From contig JAHCKS010000017.1 in NCBI GenBank assembly GCA_026125665.1, positions 1-49,773 of the forward strand: 49,773 nucleotides of DNA, given 5' to 3'. The notes beneath the pieces are model-generated. The model did no database searches and was not told where the DNA came from. It saw only the letters and a program-made list of their open reading frames with translations. Shown here piece by piece: positions 17,208 to 29,054 of the stretch. The DNA is from Rubrivivax sp. GTDB taxonomy: Bacteria > Pseudomonadota > Gammaproteobacteria > Burkholderiales > Burkholderiaceae_C. Position numbers and translations under genes: made by a program. Position 1 is the first letter of the stretch; the number at the start of each line of letters is the position of its first letter.

Positions 17208-18731
17208 CTACTGCCAGCTCATCGCGCCCAGGTCGTTGGCGAAGATCGGCACGTCCTTCCAGAGCCCCTTCACGCGGGCGTTGGCCACGGTGATCCAGGT
17301 CGGCTGGTAGAGGTAAGCGGCCACCGCGTCCTCGGCCACCAGGCGCTGGCCTTCGGCCATCAGCCTGTTGCGTTCGTCCTGGTTCACCGTGGCCTGGATG
17401 CGCGCCCACAGCTCGTTGAACTTCGCGCTCTCGTAGCCCCAGTAGTAGTTCGGGCGCGCGAAGTTGCCGAAGTCCAGCGGCTCGACGTGCGCGATGATCG
17501 TCAGGTCGTAGGCCTTCTGGCCGTAGGTGCCCGAGAGCCACTGCGCCCACTCGACGTTCTGGATCTTGGCCTTGATGCCCACCTTGTCGAGCATGGCGGC
17601 GACGACCTCGCCGCCCTGCCGCGCATAGGGCGTGGGCGGCAGCGTCATCGTCAGCTCCAGCGGCGGCACGACCCCGGCGCGGTGCAGCAGCGCGCGCGCC
17701 TTCGCCGGGTCGTGGGCGTTCATGGCCGTCAGGTCGACATAGCCCGGGGCGCCCGGCGTGTAGTAGCTGCCGATGGGCACGCCGAAGCCGTCGACGGCGC
17801 CGTCGATGACCGCCTTGCGGTCGATGGCCGCCGAGATGGCCTGGCGCACGAGCACATTGTCCAGCGGCTTTCGCTTGTTGTTCATGGCCAGGATCACCTT
17901 GGCGCGCGAGCCCCCGATGAGCACCTGGTACTTCTTGCTGCCCTGGAACTGCTTGAGGCTGCGTGCCGCGGCCACGCGCGGGAACACGTCGACGTCGCCC
18001 GACAGCAGCGCCGCCACCTGAGCCGCGGGGTCGCTGATGAAGCGGATCGTCACGCGCCGCAGCTTCACGTCCCTGGCGTTGCGGTAGGCGTCGTTGCGCA
18101 CGAGCACGATCGACGAGCCGCGGTTCCACGCCTCGAGCTTGAAGGGGCCCGTGCCGACCGGCTTGGTGCCGTTGCCCGCGGCGCTCTTGGGTTCGACGAT
18201 CGACGCCGTGGCGGCGCCGAGCTGGAACGGCAGGTCGGGATTGCCGTTCTTCAGGTGCAGCACCACGGTGTGCGGGTCGGGCGTGTCGATGCTCGCGATG
18301 TTGGCGAAGACCGCCTTGTCCTTGTTCGTGCTCTCCTTGGCGACGGCGCGCTCGTAGCTGAACTTCACCGCCTGCGCGTCGAACGGCTCGTCGTTGTGGA
18401 ATTTGACGCCCTTGCGCAGCTTGAAGGTCCAGGTCTTCAGGTCGGCCGAGGGCGTGACGCTCTCGGCCAGCAGCGGCGTGACGCGACCGTCGCCGTTGAC
18501 CTTCGTCAGCGTCTCGTAGATGTTGTAGAGCGTCACTTCGCCGATGGCCGAGGCGGCGCCGGCGGTCGGGTCGAGGCCGGGTGCCGGCTCCAGCGTCATC
18601 GCGAGCACGAGGCTGTCCTTGCGCGGCTGGGCCTCCGCCGGGCCCGCGGCCAGCAGCGCGGCAAGCGCAAGCGCCCCCAGCGCGGCGGCCGCCGCGCGAC
18701 GAGGAAGCGAGGTGAGGTCGAAGGACTTCAT
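17208..18731 (-). CDS. ABC transporter solute-binding protein, peptide/nickel family 5
   Basis: 507 aa periplasmic binding protein. A signal peptide covers residues ~1-34 (LPRRAAAAALGALALAALLAAGPAEAQ). Family features are VTLYNIYETLTKVNGDG, TWTFKLRKGVKFHNDEPFDAQAVKFS, GTGPFKLEAWNRG and LVRQAISAAIDRKAVIDGA. ATG 18731 has a GAAAGG ribosome-binding site. The family binds oligopeptides, glutathione, nickel or opines. No permease or ATPase gene is next to it, so it is an orphan that must share a transporter encoded elsewhere. Upstream lies a tetranucleotide repeat and then the CsoR-like gene. Confidence 0.92.
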   Translation of the reverse strand: MKSFDLTSLPRRAAAAALGALALAALLAAGPAEAQPRKDSLVLAMTLEPAPGLDPTAGAASAIGEVTLYNIYETLTKVNGDGRVTPLLAESVTPSADLKTWTFKLRKGVKFHNDEPFDAQAVKFSYERAVAKESTNKDKAVFANIASIDTPDPHTVVLHLKNGNPDLPFQLGAATASIVEPKSAAGNGTKPVGTGPFKLEAWNRGSSIVLVRNDAYRNARDVKLRRVTIRFISDPAAQVAALLSGDVDVFPRVAAARSLKQFQGSKKYQVLIGGSRAKVILAMNNKRKPLDNVLVRQAISAAIDRKAVIDGAVDGFGVPIGSYYTPGAPGYVDLTAMNAHDPAKARALLHRAGVVPPLELTMTLPPTPYARQGGEVVAAMLDKVGIKAKIQNVEWAQWLSGTYGQKAYDLTIIAHVEPLDFGNFARPNYYWGYESAKFNELWARIQATVNQDERNRLMAEGQRLVAEDAVAAYLYQPTWITVANARVKGLWKDVPIFANDLGAMSWQ

Positions 18732-18963: not shown

Positions 18964-19254
18964 TCAGCGTACCTTGCCGAACAGGGCCTGCATGTCGTCG
19001 AGCAGGCCGTTCATCGCGCCAACGGCCGTGTCGTTGAGCTTGAGCGAGTCCTGCAGCTCCTGCTGCATGTAGCACACCGCCAGCCGCACATGCGTGCTGT
19101 CGAGCGCCCGGCGCACGGCGGCCATCTGGTTGGCGATATCCAGGCAGGGCTGTCCCTCCTCGATCATGCGCTGCACGCCGCGCAGCTGGCCTTCGGCGCG
19201 TTTCAGGCGATTGAGCAGGTCGGTCCTGGCCTTCGCCTCGAGCAATCCCGTCAT
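18964..19254 (-). CDS. CsoR/RcnR/FrmR-family repressor (DUF156)
   Basis: 96 aa all-helical DNA-binding repressor. The signature LNRLKRAEGQLRGVQRMIEEG and the Cys in QPCLDI (Cys37) are clear. Canonical CsoR copper ligands are Cys, then His 25 residues later, then Cys 4 later; here the His position is Tyr62 and no Cys follows, but a Cys sits at 61 and a His at 55. The sensed signal may therefore not be Cu(I) or formaldehyde by the classic geometry. A GGGAGG-type ribosome-binding site precedes ATG. There is no efflux pump, rhodanese or dehydrogenase target gene beside it. It is 232 bp upstream of the orphan solute-binding protein on the same strand. Confidence 0.88.
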   Translation of the reverse strand: MTGLLEAKARTDLLNRLKRAEGQLRGVQRMIEEGQPCLDIANQMAAVRRALDSTHVRLAVCYMQQELQDSLKLNDTAVGAMNGLLDDMQALFGKVR

Positions 19255-19879: not shown

Positions 19880-19881
19880 TC
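19687..19881 (+). repeat. palindromic repeat family, copy B
   Basis: A perfect 38-bp inverted repeat (19687-19724 and 19772-19809) with a 47-bp loop, followed by a right flank (GCGCGCCGTGATCGTGGGC... to GGGATGCTC) shared with copy D. Its last bases touch the stop codon of the reductive dehalogenase gene, so it lies immediately 3' of that mRNA and would form a long hairpin at its end. Confidence 0.88.
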
Positions 19882-22800
19882 AGAGGTCGATCACCACCGT
19901 GCCGCCCTCTTCCCGCGCGCGCGAGCAGCACAGCACGATGCGCTCGCGCCGCGCCTCGCGGCCGAGCACGAAGTCGCGGTGCTCCACCTCGTCCGACGCG
20001 GCGGCGTCGTAACGCACGGCGCACACGCCGCACAGGCCGTCGGTGCACTTGGTCTCGATGCGCAGGCCGATGTCGGCCAGCACATCGGTGGCGCGGCGCT
20101 CGGCCGGCACGTCGAGCACGCGGCCGCTCTTCGCCAGGCGCAGGCGGAACGGCCGGTTCACCCACGGCGGCAGCTCGGGCACGCTGAAGTACTCGCGGTG
20201 CAGTGCGGCCTCGGGCCAGCCGCGCGCCGCGGCGGCGTCGAACACCGCGTCCATGTAGCGCGGCGAGCCGCACGTGTAGAGGTGGTCGCCCTCGCGCCAC
20301 GGCGGCACGAGCGAGGGCAGATCGGCGCGGCCCCCTTCGTCCTTCAGGTGCAGGCGCACGCGGGCTGCCCAGGGCGCGGCCGCGAGCTCGTCGAGGAAGC
20401 CGGCGGCGCGCCGGCTCGCTGCGCTGTAGTGCAGCTCGAACGGGCGCCCGAGCGTGTGCAGCCGGTGCGCCATGGCGATGAGCGGCGTGACACCGATGCC
20501 GCCGGCGAACAGCCACGTGTGCACGGCTTCCTCGTGCAGCGGGAAGTGGTTCACCGGCCGGCCGACGAAGACGCGCCGCCCCTCGCGGAACGCGCGGTGC
20601 ATCAGCGCCGAACCGCCGCGGCCGTGGCCGCCCTGCGCCGGCGTGGGCTCGCGCAGCACGCCCAGCACCCACGTGCGGCGGTCGGTCGGATCGCCGGCCA
20701 GGCTGAAGGGGCGCTGGTACTCCGGCGCGATGATCACGTCCACGTGCGCGCCGGCCTCGAACGGCGGCAGCTCGCCGCCGTCGGGCGCGGCGAAGTCGAA
20801 GCGGGCGATGCCTTCGGCCATGTCGACGCGGCGCTCGAGCACGACCGGGAACACCGGCGGCTCGCCAGGTGTCTTCGGCGCAGGCACGAGCCCCTCGGTG
20901 CGGCCCTCGGCCAGCCGCTGCCGGTACTGTGCCGGCGTCAGCAGCGCGCGGTAGCGCGCGATGCCCTGCTCGCGGTCCACCGGGAACACCACCGGATACG
21001 GCGGCGGCATGGCATCGGCCGGATAGACGGCGAGCGTCTGGTCCTCGTACTTCAGCGCCAGCGTGGTCTGCAGGCCGCGGCGGTGCGTCTGCGCCGCGCG
21101 CACGTAGCGGCCGCTCGCGCGGTCGAGCTCGATGTCCCACCACCAGGCCTTCACCGGGTTGATGGCACCGCGGCCGAGGCGGTCGTCGAGCGCCGCGAGC
21201 CACGGCGCGGCTGCCGGCACCTTCATCGCCACCTGGCGCCACAGGCTGTCGGCGAGCAGGCCCTCGAGGTTCCACGGGCAGGTCTTCATGCAGCGCCCGC
21301 ACATGCCGCCGGCGGCGTTGGTGATGCGGTAGCGCGCGCACTTCTCGGCGTCGCTCTTCCAGATCTCGTAGCCGTTGTAGACGAGCTTGGGCCCGGCGGT
21401 GATGGCGCCGGACGGGCACTCGCGCGCGCACTTGTTGCACTGCTCGCAGAAGCGCTGCAGGCCGAAGTCGATGGGCTTGTCGGCGGCCATCGGCATGTCG
21501 GTGGTGACGGTGCCGCTCTTCAGCCGCGGGCCGAGGAAGGGGTTGAGGATCACCTCGCCGATGCGGCTCACCTCGCCCAGGCCCGACAGCAGCAGCAGCG
21601 GCGGCTGCAGCACGTCGCCGTCGAGCACCGAGTGCACACGCGCGCCGTAGCCGAGAAGCCGGATCTGCTCGGCGAGCACGCCGCCGATGAGCGAGAAGCG
21701 CAGGTAGGCGCGCATGCTCTGCGCGACGCTGATCCAGTCGTCGCCGCTCGCGCCCTCCATGGTCTCGTGACCCTGGTCGAGCAGCAGGTTCACGCCGTTG
21801 GCGTGGTAGGCGGGCAGCGGGTTGCCGCCGGCGTCGTGCGAGTAGTACGCCCACCCGGGCACGGCGCACAGGCCCACCGCGTCGGCGCCGAGGTAATAGG
21901 ACGTGGCCTTCAGGGCCGCGGCGTTGCGCCCGGGGTCGTCGGCACCGGGCACGACCGGCCCGCGCGCCTCGCCGAACTGCAGCAGCAGCAGCGCGCCGAG
22001 CGCGCGCCGGGCGCAGGCGCCGATCGGGCTCTTCATCACGTAGTGCGCGTTCTTCGCCCCTTCCTGCACCGCCGGGCCGAGGTCGCCGAAGAGGGCCCGG
22101 GCAAAGAAGTCGGCGCGCTTCGGGAAACGCGGCACGCGCGCGTGGTCGATGAAGGTGGTGGGCTCGTCGCGCCGCTTCAACGTCTCGAACGGGAAGGCAC
22201 CGTCCTTGAAGTCGCGCGCGGCGTACGGGTCGGCGTGCAGCGCGCCGCGCGGCAGGCCGTGGCCCGGCCAGCGCAGCGGGTTGCCTTCGGAGACCCCCAG
22301 CCACCACGCCGGGCCGTGGCTGCACCAGCGCGGCTGCACCGCGGCGAGCGGCACGTCGGGCGCCAGCGCGAAGGTCGTGCTCACGGCCGCCAGGCCGAAG
22401 CGGCGGCCGAGGTACGGGTTCGTGCCGTCGGGCAGCACGAGGCCGGCGGCCACCGCGAGGCGCCCGAGGTCGACGTCGCTGCAGCTCGCGCTGTGCGCGC
22501 GCGCCTCGTGCCCGAGCAGACGCAGATAGGTCGACAGCAGCACGGCCGTCTGCGCCGCCAGCAGCGCGGCGCGGTGCGCCTGCGTGCCGTGCAGCCACTG
22601 GCAGCCGGGTTCGCCCGGGCGCGGGTCGCGTGGGTACTCGACGAGGATGACGAGGGCGTGCGTGTGGTGCGCCACCGGCCCGTGCACCGTGCGCGCCGCG
22701 TCGATGACGTCGGCCAGGATCATGTCCATGCCGGCCGCGAAGCTCCTCGGCTGGCTGCGCTCGAGCTCCTCGCCGAGCGCGGCGACCTGCGCGTTGCGGA

Positions 22801-23137
22801 TCGGCTCGGCGAGCAGCGCCTCGCGGGGCAGTGCGCAGGCGGCCATCATCGTTGCGTCGAAGTAGTGGCCGGCCGCCTTCAGGTGGCGCGTGCGTTCGGC
22901 GGGGTCGTCGGGCACCTCGGCCGGCTGCGGGTTGCACGGCCCGTCGCGCACGAGGTCGAACATCGCCGCGTAGCGTGCCATCGCATGGATCAGCGACCGC
23001 GGCTCGCTGCTCTCGTAGCGCAGCGGCTGCATCGGCGGCAGCGGTTCGGCCGCCTCGGGCAGCGCGGCGCGCGCCAGTCGCTCCAGCGGATAGGGACCCA
23101 GGTGCACCGGGCGGTGGCGGTAGGAGAACAGGCGCAT
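19880..23137 (-). CDS. self-sufficient reductive dehalogenase (corrinoid/Fe-S module fused to an NAD(P)H reductase module)
   Basis: 1085 aa. Residues ~1-560 form a reductive-dehalogenase-like corrinoid fold with a degenerate N-terminal half and a conserved one (YYLGADAVGLCAVPGWAYY at 414-432; LNPFLGPRLKSGTV at 531-543). Two [4Fe-4S] motifs follow: Cys564, 567, 570, 574 (CX2CX2CX3CP) and Cys600, 613, 616, 620 (CX12CX2CX3CP), the RdhA pattern. Residues ~765-985 resemble phthalate dioxygenase reductase (flavin RPFSLAG, NAD GGIGVTPLIAM, YTCGSPRYM), and ~995-1085 are a [2Fe-2S] ferredoxin (Cys1031, 1036, 1039, 1070/1071). The same layout is known in BhbA and NpRdhA, which reduce halogenated phenols with NAD(P)H. 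No Tat signal, so cytoplasmic. ATG 23137 was chosen over an upstream ATG because GAGG lies before it. It is divergent from a ClC gene. The substrate is inferred to be halo-aromatic. Confidence 0.88.
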   Translation of the reverse strand: MRLFSYRHRPVHLGPYPLERLARAALPEAAEPLPPMQPLRYESSEPRSLIHAMARYAAMFDLVRDGPCNPQPAEVPDDPAERTRHLKAAGHYFDATMMAACALPREALLAEPIRNAQVAALGEELERSQPRSFAAGMDMILADVIDAARTVHGPVAHHTHALVILVEYPRDPRPGEPGCQWLHGTQAHRAALLAAQTAVLLSTYLRLLGHEARAHSASCSDVDLGRLAVAAGLVLPDGTNPYLGRRFGLAAVSTTFALAPDVPLAAVQPRWCSHGPAWWLGVSEGNPLRWPGHGLPRGALHADPYAARDFKDGAFPFETLKRRDEPTTFIDHARVPRFPKRADFFARALFGDLGPAVQEGAKNAHYVMKSPIGACARRALGALLLLQFGEARGPVVPGADDPGRNAAALKATSYYLGADAVGLCAVPGWAYYSHDAGGNPLPAYHANGVNLLLDQGHETMEGASGDDWISVAQSMRAYLRFSLIGGVLAEQIRLLGYGARVHSVLDGDVLQPPLLLLSGLGEVSRIGEVILNPFLGPRLKSGTVTTDMPMAADKPIDFGLQRFCEQCNKCARECPSGAITAGPKLVYNGYEIWKSDAEKCARYRITNAAGGMCGRCMKTCPWNLEGLLADSLWRQVAMKVPAAAPWLAALDDRLGRGAINPVKAWWWDIELDRASGRYVRAAQTHRRGLQTTLALKYEDQTLAVYPADAMPPPYPVVFPVDREQGIARYRALLTPAQYRQRLAEGRTEGLVPAPKTPGEPPVFPVVLERRVDMAEGIARFDFAAPDGGELPPFEAGAHVDVIIAPEYQRPFSLAGDPTDRRTWVLGVLREPTPAQGGHGRGGSALMHRAFREGRRVFVGRPVNHFPLHEEAVHTWLFAGGIGVTPLIAMAHRLHTLGRPFELHYSAASRRAAGFLDELAAAPWAARVRLHLKDEGGRADLPSLVPPWREGDHLYTCGSPRYMDAVFDAAAARGWPEAALHREYFSVPELPPWVNRPFRLRLAKSGRVLDVPAERRATDVLADIGLRIETKCTDGLCGVCAVRYDAAASDEVEHRDFVLGREARRERIVLCCSRAREEGGTVVIDL

Positions 23138-23216: not shown

Positions 23217-23228
23217 TTTGCATTTGCA
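23217..23228 (+). promoter_or_regulatory. (TTTGCA)2 direct repeat in the divergent promoter region
   Basis: Two tandem TTTGCA hexamers lie just before a TATACT hexamer at 23233-23238. TTGCA half-sites recur in the inverted repeat at 23403-23416, so the same regulator could bind both. Confidence 0.35.
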
Positions 23229-23232
23229 CGCA

Positions 23233-23341
23233 TATACTTGGACCGCTTCGAGTCGGCCGCCTGGGCGGTGGGCTCCTGGCGTGCAAACGACTTGTTCTTG
23301 GACGGGGCGGCCTCGCAGCACGAGGCGCCCCGCTTTTTTTT
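23233..23341 (+). ncRNA. candidate ~100-nt terminated transcript between the dehalogenase and ClC genes
   Basis: TATACT (23233-23238) is a good -10 hexamer. About 65 nt after the expected start a GC hairpin and an 8-T run form the only strong intrinsic terminator of the window. The product would be ~97 nt with one more internal hairpin (GCCGCC-TGGG-CGG). It could be a free small RNA or an attenuated leader for ClC. It does not match any riboswitch consensus that I know. Confidence 0.4.
23304..23341 (+). terminator. intrinsic terminator upstream of the ClC gene
   Basis: GGGGC, a bulged G and GCCTCG (23304-23315) pair with CGAGGC and GCCCC (23321-23331) around a CAGCA loop; eight T follow at 23334-23341. 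This is a textbook Rho-independent terminator on the plus strand, 90 bp before the ClC start codon. Confidence 0.85.
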
Positions 23342-23402
23342 GGCCGGTCAGCGGACGCGATCGTTGCCGGCGCTCGGCGAATCCGCACCGCGCCCGGTCG
23401 CG

Positions 23403-23416
23403 TTGCATGTGTGCAA
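23403..23416. promoter_or_regulatory. perfect 5-4-5 inverted repeat (TTGCA-N4-TGCAA) over the ClC promoter
   Basis: TTGCATGTGTGCAA is a perfect dyad ending one base before the TACAAT -10 region of the ClC gene. The 5-4-5 spacing is that of CRP/FNR-superfamily operators, which include the dehalogenase regulator CprK, but the half-site TTGCA differs from theirs. Binding here should block or alter ClC transcription. Confidence 0.45.
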
Positions 23417-23417
23417 A

Positions 23418-23423
23418 TACAAT
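23418..23423 (+). promoter_or_regulatory. -10 hexamer of the ClC gene (leaderless-type)
   Basis: TACAAT is followed by 7 nt and the ATG at 23431, so the transcript probably begins at the start codon. No Shine-Dalgarno sequence is present. Confidence 0.55.
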
Positions 23424-23430
23424 TGCCGTC

Positions 23431-24927
23431 ATGCATTGGCCGCGCCGGCTTCTGAACCGCCTTGCGGAACTGCGCAAGGAGGCAGCCGACACGGTGGGCG
23501 CGCATGGCGAGCAGGCGCCCCCGCTGCGGCGCCTGCTTGGCGAGCTGGCGGTCTCGCATCCGTGGATCGACCGCGGCGTCGTGCTCGGCTTCGCCGCCTT
23601 CACCGGGCTCGCGGTCGTCGCGTTCACCTGGCTGTCCGAGCTGGCCACGCACGGGCACGAGCGGTTGCGCGGGGTGGCTGCGTGGGCGCCCTTGCTGATG
23701 CTGCTGTGGACGCCAGCGCTGACGGTGGCGGTGCTGTGGTGCACGCGCCGCTTCGCGCCGGGCGCGATCGGCTCCGGCATCCCGCAGGTGATGCGTGCGG
23801 TCGAGGACGACATCACGCCGGCGCAGCGGCGATGGCTCGTCTCGCCCGTGCTGTCGCTGCAGAAGATCGGCCTCGTGTCCGCCGGCCTCTTGGCCGGCCT
23901 GTCGATCGGCCGCGAAGGGCCCACGGTGCAGGTGGGCGCCGGGCTGATGGTCGGGGCGCGGCGGTGGCTCTCGCCGAGCTCGCGCATCGACGAGCACGAC
24001 CTGATGGTCGCCGGCGCCGCCGCCGGCATCGCCGCGGCGTTCAACACGCCGCTGGGCGGCATCGTCTTCGGCCTGGAGCAGCTGACGCGCCGGCGCGGCC
24101 TGCAGCACAGCACGCTGGTCATCGCCGCCATCGTGCTGGCCGGCCTCGTCGCGGTGGCGTTCTTCGGCAGCTCGGCCTACTTCGGGCGGCTGCCGGTGCA
24201 GACGCTGTCGTGGTCGCTGCTGGCGCCCGGCCTGATGGTGGCGCTGGTGAGCGGCCTGGCCGGCGGCCTCTTCGCGCGGCTGATGGTCGCCTCGGCCGAA
24301 GCCGGCACCGACCGCCTGCAGCGCTGGCGCGCGTCGTACCCGTTCCGCTTCGCCGCCGCGTGCGCAGCCGCCGTGGCGCTGATCGGCCTCGTCACCGGCG
24401 GCCAGACGGCCGGCGCCGGCTACGCGCCGACGCGCGGCCTGCTCGAAGGCCAGGCCGACCTGCCCGGCGTCTACACGGTGCTGAAGTTCTGCGCCACCTG
24501 GCTGTCGGCCTGGACCGGCGTGCCGGCAGGCGCGTTCGCGCCGTCGCTGGCCATCGGCGCGGGCATCGGCCACGACGTGGCCACGCTGGCCGACGTCGGC
24601 CGCGACGCGGCGATCCCGCTGATCGCGCTCGGCATGGCCGGCTTCCTGGCGGCGACGACACAGGCGCCGATCACCGCCTTCATCATCGTCATGGAGATGG
24701 TGTCGGGGCACGCGATGGTGCTCAGCCTGATGGCCTGCACGATGGTGGCCGCAGGCGTTTCGCGGCTCGTCTCGGCGCCGATGTACGACGGCTTGGCGGC
24801 GCTGCTGCCGGTGTCCGGGGCGGCACCGGCGGGCGCCCCCGAGACGCCGACGGCGGGCGCAGGCACACCGGCCGGCGACGCCGCGCCGCCGGGCGACGAT
24901 GCCCCGCCACCAGTCGCTCCGCGGTGA
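23431..24927 (+). CDS. ClC-family chloride/halide transporter
   Basis: 498 aa inner-membrane protein with the ClC fold. Anion-site motifs are GSGIP (Ser115), GREGP (external gating Glu162) and GAFAPSLAIG; Tyr452 in APMYDGL matches the central Tyr. With the offset set by Glu148 of the E. coli protein, the internal proton glutamate (Glu203) is Gln217, so tight H+ coupling may be lost. GREGP rather than GREGT argues against a fluoride-specific type. The last ~45 residues are an Ala/Pro/Gly-rich tail without a CBS domain. ATG 23431 is preferred over ATG 23407, which would put the start upstream of the -10. It is divergent from the reductive dehalogenase, which suggests a role in halide export. 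Confidence 0.9.
   Translation: MHWPRRLLNRLAELRKEAADTVGAHGEQAPPLRRLLGELAVSHPWIDRGVVLGFAAFTGLAVVAFTWLSELATHGHERLRGVAAWAPLLMLLWTPALTVAVLWCTRRFAPGAIGSGIPQVMRAVEDDITPAQRRWLVSPVLSLQKIGLVSAGLLAGLSIGREGPTVQVGAGLMVGARRWLSPSSRIDEHDLMVAGAAAGIAAAFNTPLGGIVFGLEQLTRRRGLQHSTLVIAAIVLAGLVAVAFFGSSAYFGRLPVQTLSWSLLAPGLMVALVSGLAGGLFARLMVASAEAGTDRLQRWRASYPFRFAAACAAAVALIGLVTGGQTAGAGYAPTRGLLEGQADLPGVYTVLKFCATWLSAWTGVPAGAFAPSLAIGAGIGHDVATLADVGRDAAIPLIALGMAGFLAATTQAPITAFIIVMEMVSGHAMVLSLMACTMVAAGVSRLVSAPMYDGLAALLPVSGAAPAGAPETPTAGAGTPAGDAAPPGDDAPPPVAPR

Positions 24928-27311: not shown

Positions 27312-29054
<1,743 letters not shown>

Follow-up and report, generated by a model that had tools for sequence, protein, structure and literature searches.

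Reductive dehalogenases (RdhAs) have been divided by domain organisation into four subfamilies, one of which is a fusion to a phthalate dioxygenase reductase (PDOR) module (PMC10463259). BhbA was the first catabolic RdhA to be described, and both BhbA and JtRdhA are self-sufficient; JtRdhA has been purified and is driven by NADPH on bromo- and iodophenols, and up to that work the catabolic RdhAs that had been characterised showed specificity for ortho-halogenated phenols (PMC10463259). A vestigial duplication of the corrinoid-binding fold distinguishes catabolic RdhAs, an insert specific to RdhA-PDOR fusions has been described, and NpRdhA is unfused, having no reductase domain (PMC10463259). 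The characterised fused RdhAs in the literature examined are BhbA and JtRdhA, and further ones may be among the 36 RdhAs screened by Ng and Silver in 2024 (cited in PMC13101508). Here we analyse the rdhA gene of a 49,773-nucleotide stretch of Rubrivivax sp. DNA (NCBI GenBank assembly GCA_026125665.1, contig JAHCKS010000017.1), the whole of which is referred to as the window.

Judged from its sequence, the gene very probably encodes a cytosolic, self-sufficient, catabolic RdhA, and it displays every feature of the fused subfamily that a sequence can be examined for. This assignment is supported by the family model, the PDB relatives, the catalytic residues, an internal duplication, the fused reductase and the fold, and so is the proposal, made in an earlier note on this DNA, that the enzyme is catabolic rather than respiratory. 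The fused architecture has already been described; what appears to be new is a mainly Burkholderiales group with a constant pocket variant.

Domain architecture and family assignment

The open reading frame (Table 1) has an alternative upstream ATG at 23233. We preferred the methionine at 23137 as the start because it coincides with the start of NpRdhA and because the alignment begins at residue 1 in 40 of the 42 related loci from a scan of genome contigs. The protein scored 170.2 bits against the NCBIfam RDH model TIGR02486 (cut-off 160.35). A search of the PDB matched it to NpRdhA (4ras, E 7.6e-171, best stretches 1–104 and 157–743; 45.9% identity over 669 positions of the RdhA part) and, through residues 757–1076, to phthalate dioxygenase reductase (2pia, E 3.7e-51). 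Three Pfam models were above cut-off, Fer4_7, Fer4_16 and Fer2 (PF00111, 22.3 bits with a cut-off of 21, residues 1003–1074), and the fusion to a PDOR-like flavin/NAD module and a [2Fe-2S] domain that the earlier note had proposed is borne out by these matches.

The cluster motifs that had been placed at residues 564–574, 600–620 and 1031–1039 are present in the translated frame. Their cysteines (C564-C567-C570-C574, followed by P575; C600-C613-C616-C620, followed by P621; and C1031-C1036-C1039 with a fourth, C1070) are invariant in all 31 rows of an alignment of the window protein with 30 of the 42 genome-contig loci. The flavin- and NAD(P)-binding module contains the sequences RPFSLA, GGIGVTP and YSAASR. 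The same C-terminal reductase module occurs in phthalate dioxygenase reductase (2pia) and in the self-sufficient P450s 6laa and 6kbh, where the electron acceptor is an oxygenase or a P450, whereas here it would be a corrinoid dehalogenase.

All six active-site residues reported as conserved in JtRdhA (F291, S422, M423, Y426, K488 and R552 in NpRdhA numbering; PMC10463259) are present in the window protein, as F345, S474, M475, Y478, K540 and R604 respectively. In NpRdhA the last five position the substrate and act on it (PMC7565698), and an alignment with NpRdhA, which the earlier note had suggested as a check on the catalytic Tyr and Lys/Arg, recovers these residues as Y478, K540 and R604; the loss of the catalytic Tyr that the note named as a refuting result was thus not seen. 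The same S, M, Y, K and R are found in 59 of 59 aligned rows, comprising 48 fused proteins (the window protein included), ten unfused relatives and NpRdhA; the incomplete sequences L037, L043, L044 and L089 were excluded.

A single hhalign comparison of residues 40–345 with 395–562 gave a probability of 99.0 (E 8.3e-18), with residues 75–266 aligning with 398–558, revealing the internal duplication. The 42-residue insert at residues 110–151 is present in all nine fused proteins compared, missing from NpRdhA and one unfused relative, and presumably the same as the published RdhA-PDOR insert. An AlphaFold model built with 31 sequences had a mean predicted local distance difference test (pLDDT) score of 75.2 and a predicted template modelling (pTM) score of 0.77. 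When this model was searched with Foldseek, the first 14 matches were all NpRdhA chains (TMt 0.83–0.85), with structures of the reductase module coming next.

A respiratory reductive dehalogenase was rejected, as neither a twin-arginine translocation (Tat) signal nor an RdhB anchor gene was seen, in agreement with the earlier note. Inspection of the N terminus by eye revealed no twin-arginine motif. The called neighbours, of which the adjacent ones belong to the ClC and CsoR families, include nothing resembling an RdhB anchor gene.

Table 1. Coordinates of rdhA, its domains and the neighbouring features in the window.
Feature	Position	Strand	Basis
Self-sufficient catabolic reductive dehalogenase gene (rdhA), predicted	19880..23137	-	1085 residues plus stop, open frame
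N-terminal half (residues 1–345), vestigial copy of the corrinoid-binding fold	22103..23137	-	hhalign; role known from NpRdhA
42-residue insert (residues 110–151)	22685..22810	-	Alignment with NpRdhA and fused/unfused relatives
Catalytic corrinoid-binding core (residues ~395–560; V471, S474, M475, Y478, V504, K540)	21458..21955	-	NpRdhA mapping; TIGR02486 best stretch 450–655
First [4Fe-4S] motif, CX2CX2CX3CP (residues 564–575)	21413..21448	-	Fer4_7, Fer4_16 above cut-off
Second [4Fe-4S] motif, CX12CX2CX3CP (residues 600–621), including R604 (NpRdhA R552 equivalent)	21275..21340	-	
Flavin- and NAD(P)-binding module (residues ~757–985)	20183..20869	-	2pia match; Foldseek 6laa, 6kbh, 2pia
[2Fe-2S] ferredoxin domain (residues ~997–1074; C1031, C1036, C1039, C1070)	19916..20149	-	Fer2 PF00111
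Divergent CLC-family gene	23431..24927	+	PF00654, 260.6 bits; 1kpl, E 4.2e-28
Stretch bounded by inverted pair (arms 23218–23233 and 23407–23422)	23218..23422	.	14 of 16 complementary
CsoR-type metal-sensitive repressor family gene, directly downstream of rdhA, same strand	18964..19245	-	PF02583, 76.9 bits
Family-5 solute-binding protein gene, downstream of rdhA, same strand	17208..18731	-	PF00496

Relatives and the substrate pocket

The 42 genome-contig loci, all from one scan, have best-segment identities of 56–82% and belong mostly to Burkholderiales (ten are titled Limnohabitans and five Rubrivivax), together with several Alphaproteobacteria. Among plasmid records, eight have one place spanning at least 80% of the query, at 49–58% identity. 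In a sample of 60 genomes of the genus, 17 matched at E ≤ 1e-100, with no more than one match in any of them: nine are fused (the window's own included), one, matching partially over 310 residues, counts as fused-like on its 71% identity, and seven are unfused and NpRdhA-like (46–49% identity). A wider sample of the family, in which two candidates per genome were scored, gave matches in 11 of 399 genomes (the window's genome included), eight of them fused-like (one partial) and three unfused. The distribution is patchy. The earlier note had stated that only a few such proteins are characterised, but an argument from rarity does not fit the described subfamily, the purified JtRdhA, which the note did not name, or the 42 further loci; NpRdhA, which it cited as one of them, is, as stated above, an unfused protein. 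The tree legend of PMC10463259 names the Burkholderiales sequence JOSHI_001 and Ottowia thiooxydans; by title, our literature search returned no report of a fused RdhA in Limnohabitans or Rubrivivax. No relative was confirmed in a scan of viral contigs with the window protein.

In a quick tree of the 59 aligned rows, drawn with a midpoint root and Shimodaira–Hasegawa-like approximate likelihood ratio test (SH-aLRT) supports, the window protein groups with Rubrivivax albus and a betaproteobacterial metagenome-assembled genome (MAG) with a support of 95, and these nearest relatives support the placement in Burkholderiales made in the earlier note. A branch with a support of 97 places the window protein with 45 other fused sequences. 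BhbA is grouped apart with a Nitratireductor plasmid protein (support 100), and the unfused proteins group with NpRdhA (support 100), the unfused set alone having a support of 39. The tree program warned of long branches meeting between the unfused set and the BhbA group, and of long branches for L072 and L046.

At NpRdhA positions 310, 311, 419 and 452, the window protein has Y366, V367, V471 and V504. This Y/V/V/V signature is constant in 46 of 46 rows of the window's group, which include near-copies, and recurs in three additional plasmid proteins from Rhodobacterales, two of which come from a single species. Other pockets are S/V/S/A in BhbA and the Nitratireductor homologue (2/2), F/A/G/N in the unfused relatives (10/10) and F/P/A/N in NpRdhA itself, and the residue equivalent to NpRdhA F290 is variable (F, M or L). 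In NpRdhA, A419 lines the second-halogen pocket, and the A419M variant has a higher relative activity on the mono-bromo than on the dibromo substrate, its absolute rate not being raised (PMC7565698). V471 may narrow the second-halogen pocket of the window protein. Discussion of the Y/V/V/V variant was not found in the literature examined. As far as the aligned proteins indicate, the window gene belongs to a large, mainly Burkholderiales group of fused RdhAs with its own constant pocket signature, distinct from NpRdhA, BhbA and the unfused relatives.

When set beside the window protein by its published description, JtRdhA (WP_104007082) resembles it: there is no Tat signal, the corrinoid domain is duplicated, and both proteins have two [4Fe-4S] motifs, an insert compared with NpRdhA, a C-terminal PDOR with a [2Fe-2S] domain and the same six active-site residues. 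The host of JtRdhA, Jhaorihella thermophila, is a marine alphaproteobacterium. Only minor conservative changes are reported near the second bromine site of JtRdhA (PMC10463259), and these would fit Y/V/V/V. BhbA (Comamonas sp. 7D-2, plasmid pBHB, L045) shares with the window protein a collinear full-length fusion (100% query coverage, 51.2% identity over 1061 positions) and the same catalytic set. Unlike the window gene, bhbA lies on a plasmid, where it is directly preceded by ligA and by genes for an extradiol dioxygenase and a tricarboxylate-type binding protein. In Nitratireductor sp. OM-1, rdhA has pobA and an extradiol dioxygenase gene close by. NpRdhA (Nitratireductor pacificus; PDB IDs: 4ras, 6zxu, 6zxx, 6zy0 and 6zy1) has the same catalytic residues and provides the best fold match; it differs from the window protein in being unfused, in lacking the insert, in its pocket, and in grouping with unfused Burkholderiales proteins.

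Some further relatives were observed alongside this group. Unfused NpRdhA-like proteins (L057–L063 and L072–L074) occur in the same genus and family, at 44–49% identity to the window protein, and the fused and unfused kinds occur together in none of the 60 genus genomes sampled. A crude motif scan of the short flanks of these ten unfused relatives found no ferredoxin or reductase genes. On a plasmid of Yoonia sp. SS1-5 (L153:3001–6202), a fused rdhA homologue that is absent from the listed annotation matches in two pieces in different frames, owing either to a break in the gene or to an error in sequencing. The fused rdhA of a MAG record with the title Bordetella parapertussis (L027) falls together in the tree with those of two environmental betaproteobacterial MAG records, and the species name of L027 looks wrong.

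Proposed reaction and genome context

From these comparisons we infer the cofactor loading, electron path, activity, substrate, halogen preference and role of the enzyme. Hydride from NAD(P)H would pass to the flavin of the C-terminal module (flavin mononucleotide in the characterised relative), and single electrons would then travel through the fused [2Fe-2S] domain and the two [4Fe-4S] clusters to a base-off corrinoid. The hydroxyl of an ortho-halogenated phenol would be held by S474, K540 and R604, with the halogen on cobalt and a proton supplied by Y478, and halide and the dehalogenated phenol would be released. The substrates are likely to be phenols with bromine or iodine in the ortho position and an acidic group in the para position, for example 3-halo-4-hydroxybenzoate. 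If JtRdhA carries Y/V/V/V, the best prediction by analogy would be that bromo- and iodophenols are substrates and their chloro analogues inhibitors.

A 4-hydroxybenzoate product could enter a PobA and LigAB route encoded elsewhere in the genome, which is 88.6% complete. On other contigs it carries three 4-hydroxybenzoate 3-monooxygenases (PobA) above cut-off, as well as LigA, LigB, HpaD, HpaE and HpaH above NCBIfam cut-offs, and the genome has five LigB-family places above cut-off. 4-Hydroxybenzoate arising from dehalogenation is thus plausibly usable by the genome's own genes, and the lack of adjoining aromatic-degradation genes remarked on in the earlier note applies to the neighbourhood of rdhA, not to the genome.

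For the cofactor, CobS was not found in this incomplete genome, and a CobD/CbiB-like match has neighbours that, on inspection by eye, do not look like B12 genes. On contig C13 of the same genome (L116:6019–11169), a cobalamin riboswitch (59.1 bits) is followed by BtuB-, BtuF-, BtuC- and BtuD-like genes, forming a probable corrinoid uptake operon. Given these Btu-like genes behind the riboswitch, the corrinoid is probably imported.

Several observations weigh against this account. HpaB was not found in the genome, leaving the 4-hydroxyphenylacetate route incomplete as searched, and no aromatic gene adjoins rdhA, unlike on the plasmid of BhbA. The four Btu-like proteins fall below the equivalog cut-offs of those names. 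In the second-halogen pocket, V471 replaces A419 of NpRdhA, so the substrates of NpRdhA or BhbA may not be transferable. Finally, pLDDT falls below 50 in several stretches of the AlphaFold model (e.g. 341–368, 456–469, 512–537 and 594–614), some of which contain pocket residues, and the model was therefore not used for pocket geometry.

Neighbouring genes and alternative functions

The same enzyme might serve to detoxify natural halogenated phenolics, with the halide exported by the neighbouring CLC antiporter, rather than to feed carbon into metabolism, a role we regard as possible but unlikely. The CLC-family gene is divergent from rdhA, with 293 bp between the predicted starts, and is nearest in sequence to the H+/Cl- exchange transporter ClcA; it is a possible halide exporter, and as a lead only, an exporter of released halide next to rdhA would make sense. 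The lack of adjoining aromatic genes would also fit detoxification. In the genus sample, ClC (E ≤ 1e-60) was found in eight of the ten fused or fused-like genomes and in 19 of the 50 others (Fisher p 0.033, with no correction for relatedness or for the quality of the assemblies). A fused rdhA on the Aminobacter plasmid pANY103b is preceded, at a distance of about 4 kb, by a truncated ClC-like stretch (L046:3304–3915) that is absent from the listed annotation. That fragment was the one match when the window ClC was searched by tblastn against 46 loci, which speaks against a pairing of the two genes, as does the lack of a cluster partner for the window ClC among the called genes of 52 loci. Of the 28 other ClC places in the genus, none has rdhA within its flanks (at most about 1.5 kb), and the presence of a downstream aromatic pathway in the genome also argues against detoxification. 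ClC as a conserved partner of rdhA was rejected, since the adjacency recurs in no other locus examined save the Aminobacter fragment; a lineage-specific lead remains.

The inverted pair between the two gene starts is a weak candidate for a shared operator. Its score was equalled in 33 of 300 dinucleotide shuffles and is not significant. Its 12-base core has only two copies in the whole genome, both here, although these copies were themselves the source of the motif; at two mismatches or fewer, two occurrences were observed in the window against 2.31 expected, and none of 51 other loci has a match with fewer than two mismatches in its upstream stretch (≤300 bp). We consider it unlikely that the fused Y/V/V/V group, widespread in Burkholderiales, is functionally distinct, with a second-halogen pocket suited to natural mono-ortho-halogenated (bromo/iodo) phenolic acids and not to dihalogenated pollutants, and that in this lineage a divergent control region common to both genes has made a halide-exporting CLC antiporter its partner.

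That the window protein is BhbA's functional orthologue, with a specialisation on the 3,5-dibromo-4-hydroxybenzoate derived from bromoxynil-type pollutants, would fit the full-length fused architecture of both and the PobA and LigAB of this genome, yet we consider it improbable and rejected it as a candidate. The two proteins fall in separate tree groups (SH-aLRT 97 and 100) at the identity given above, no lig genes adjoin the window's rdhA, and their pockets differ (Y/V/V/V vs S/V/S/A), Val having a larger side chain than Ala or Ser where the second halogen would sit. Hardly credible is a closer kinship with epoxyqueuosine reductase (QueG) among the class III corrinoid enzymes, or a drifted non-dehalogenating reductase: the weak partial match to the QueG model TIGR00276 (23.3 bits, residues 507–623) is expected from a shared fold and lies far under the cut-off of 200, the RDH cut-off is exceeded, the catalytic residues are kept, a separate, clear QueG gene elsewhere in the genome scores 432.9 bits where the fused protein reaches only 23–24, and no QueG structure is among the best 50 of 315 Foldseek matches (E ≤ 0.001), so that the closer relation to QueG named in the earlier note as refuting a dehalogenase was not found.

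The remaining neighbours were called and clustered across the 52 loci, and a conserved operon was rejected as a clue to the substrate, as the neighbourhoods vary and yield no substrate hint. Directly downstream of rdhA, 12 loci of Limnohabitans and near kin have an SDR gene (PF13561 in L014). Upstream of rdhA, a GntR/FadR-like gene (identified by eye) was seen in L003, L016 and L020, and a MarR-type gene (identified through the annotation of L046) in six loci from Alphaproteobacteria; none of the genes immediately flanking rdhA in the window has a cluster partner among the 52. In the gene list, no permease or ATPase gene was recognised beside the family-5 solute-binding protein gene. An IlvD/EDD-type dehydratase gene (27312–29054, minus strand), about 4–5 kb from rdhA, also occurs in L003, L016 and L020 (about 49% identical); it is on the rdhA strand in the window and on the opposite strand in those three loci, and its presence may be coincidence.

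As a self-sufficient catabolic RdhA, the window protein would join a family of NAD(P)H-driven enzymes, one of which, studied in detail, works under air, making them of interest for the removal of halogenated phenols. JtRdhA prefers bromine and iodine over chlorine, and the generality of this preference is left open in the discussion of PMC10463259. The group described here bears on whether the preference is general to fused enzymes, and its mainly Burkholderiales carriers might take part in natural organohalogen turnover.

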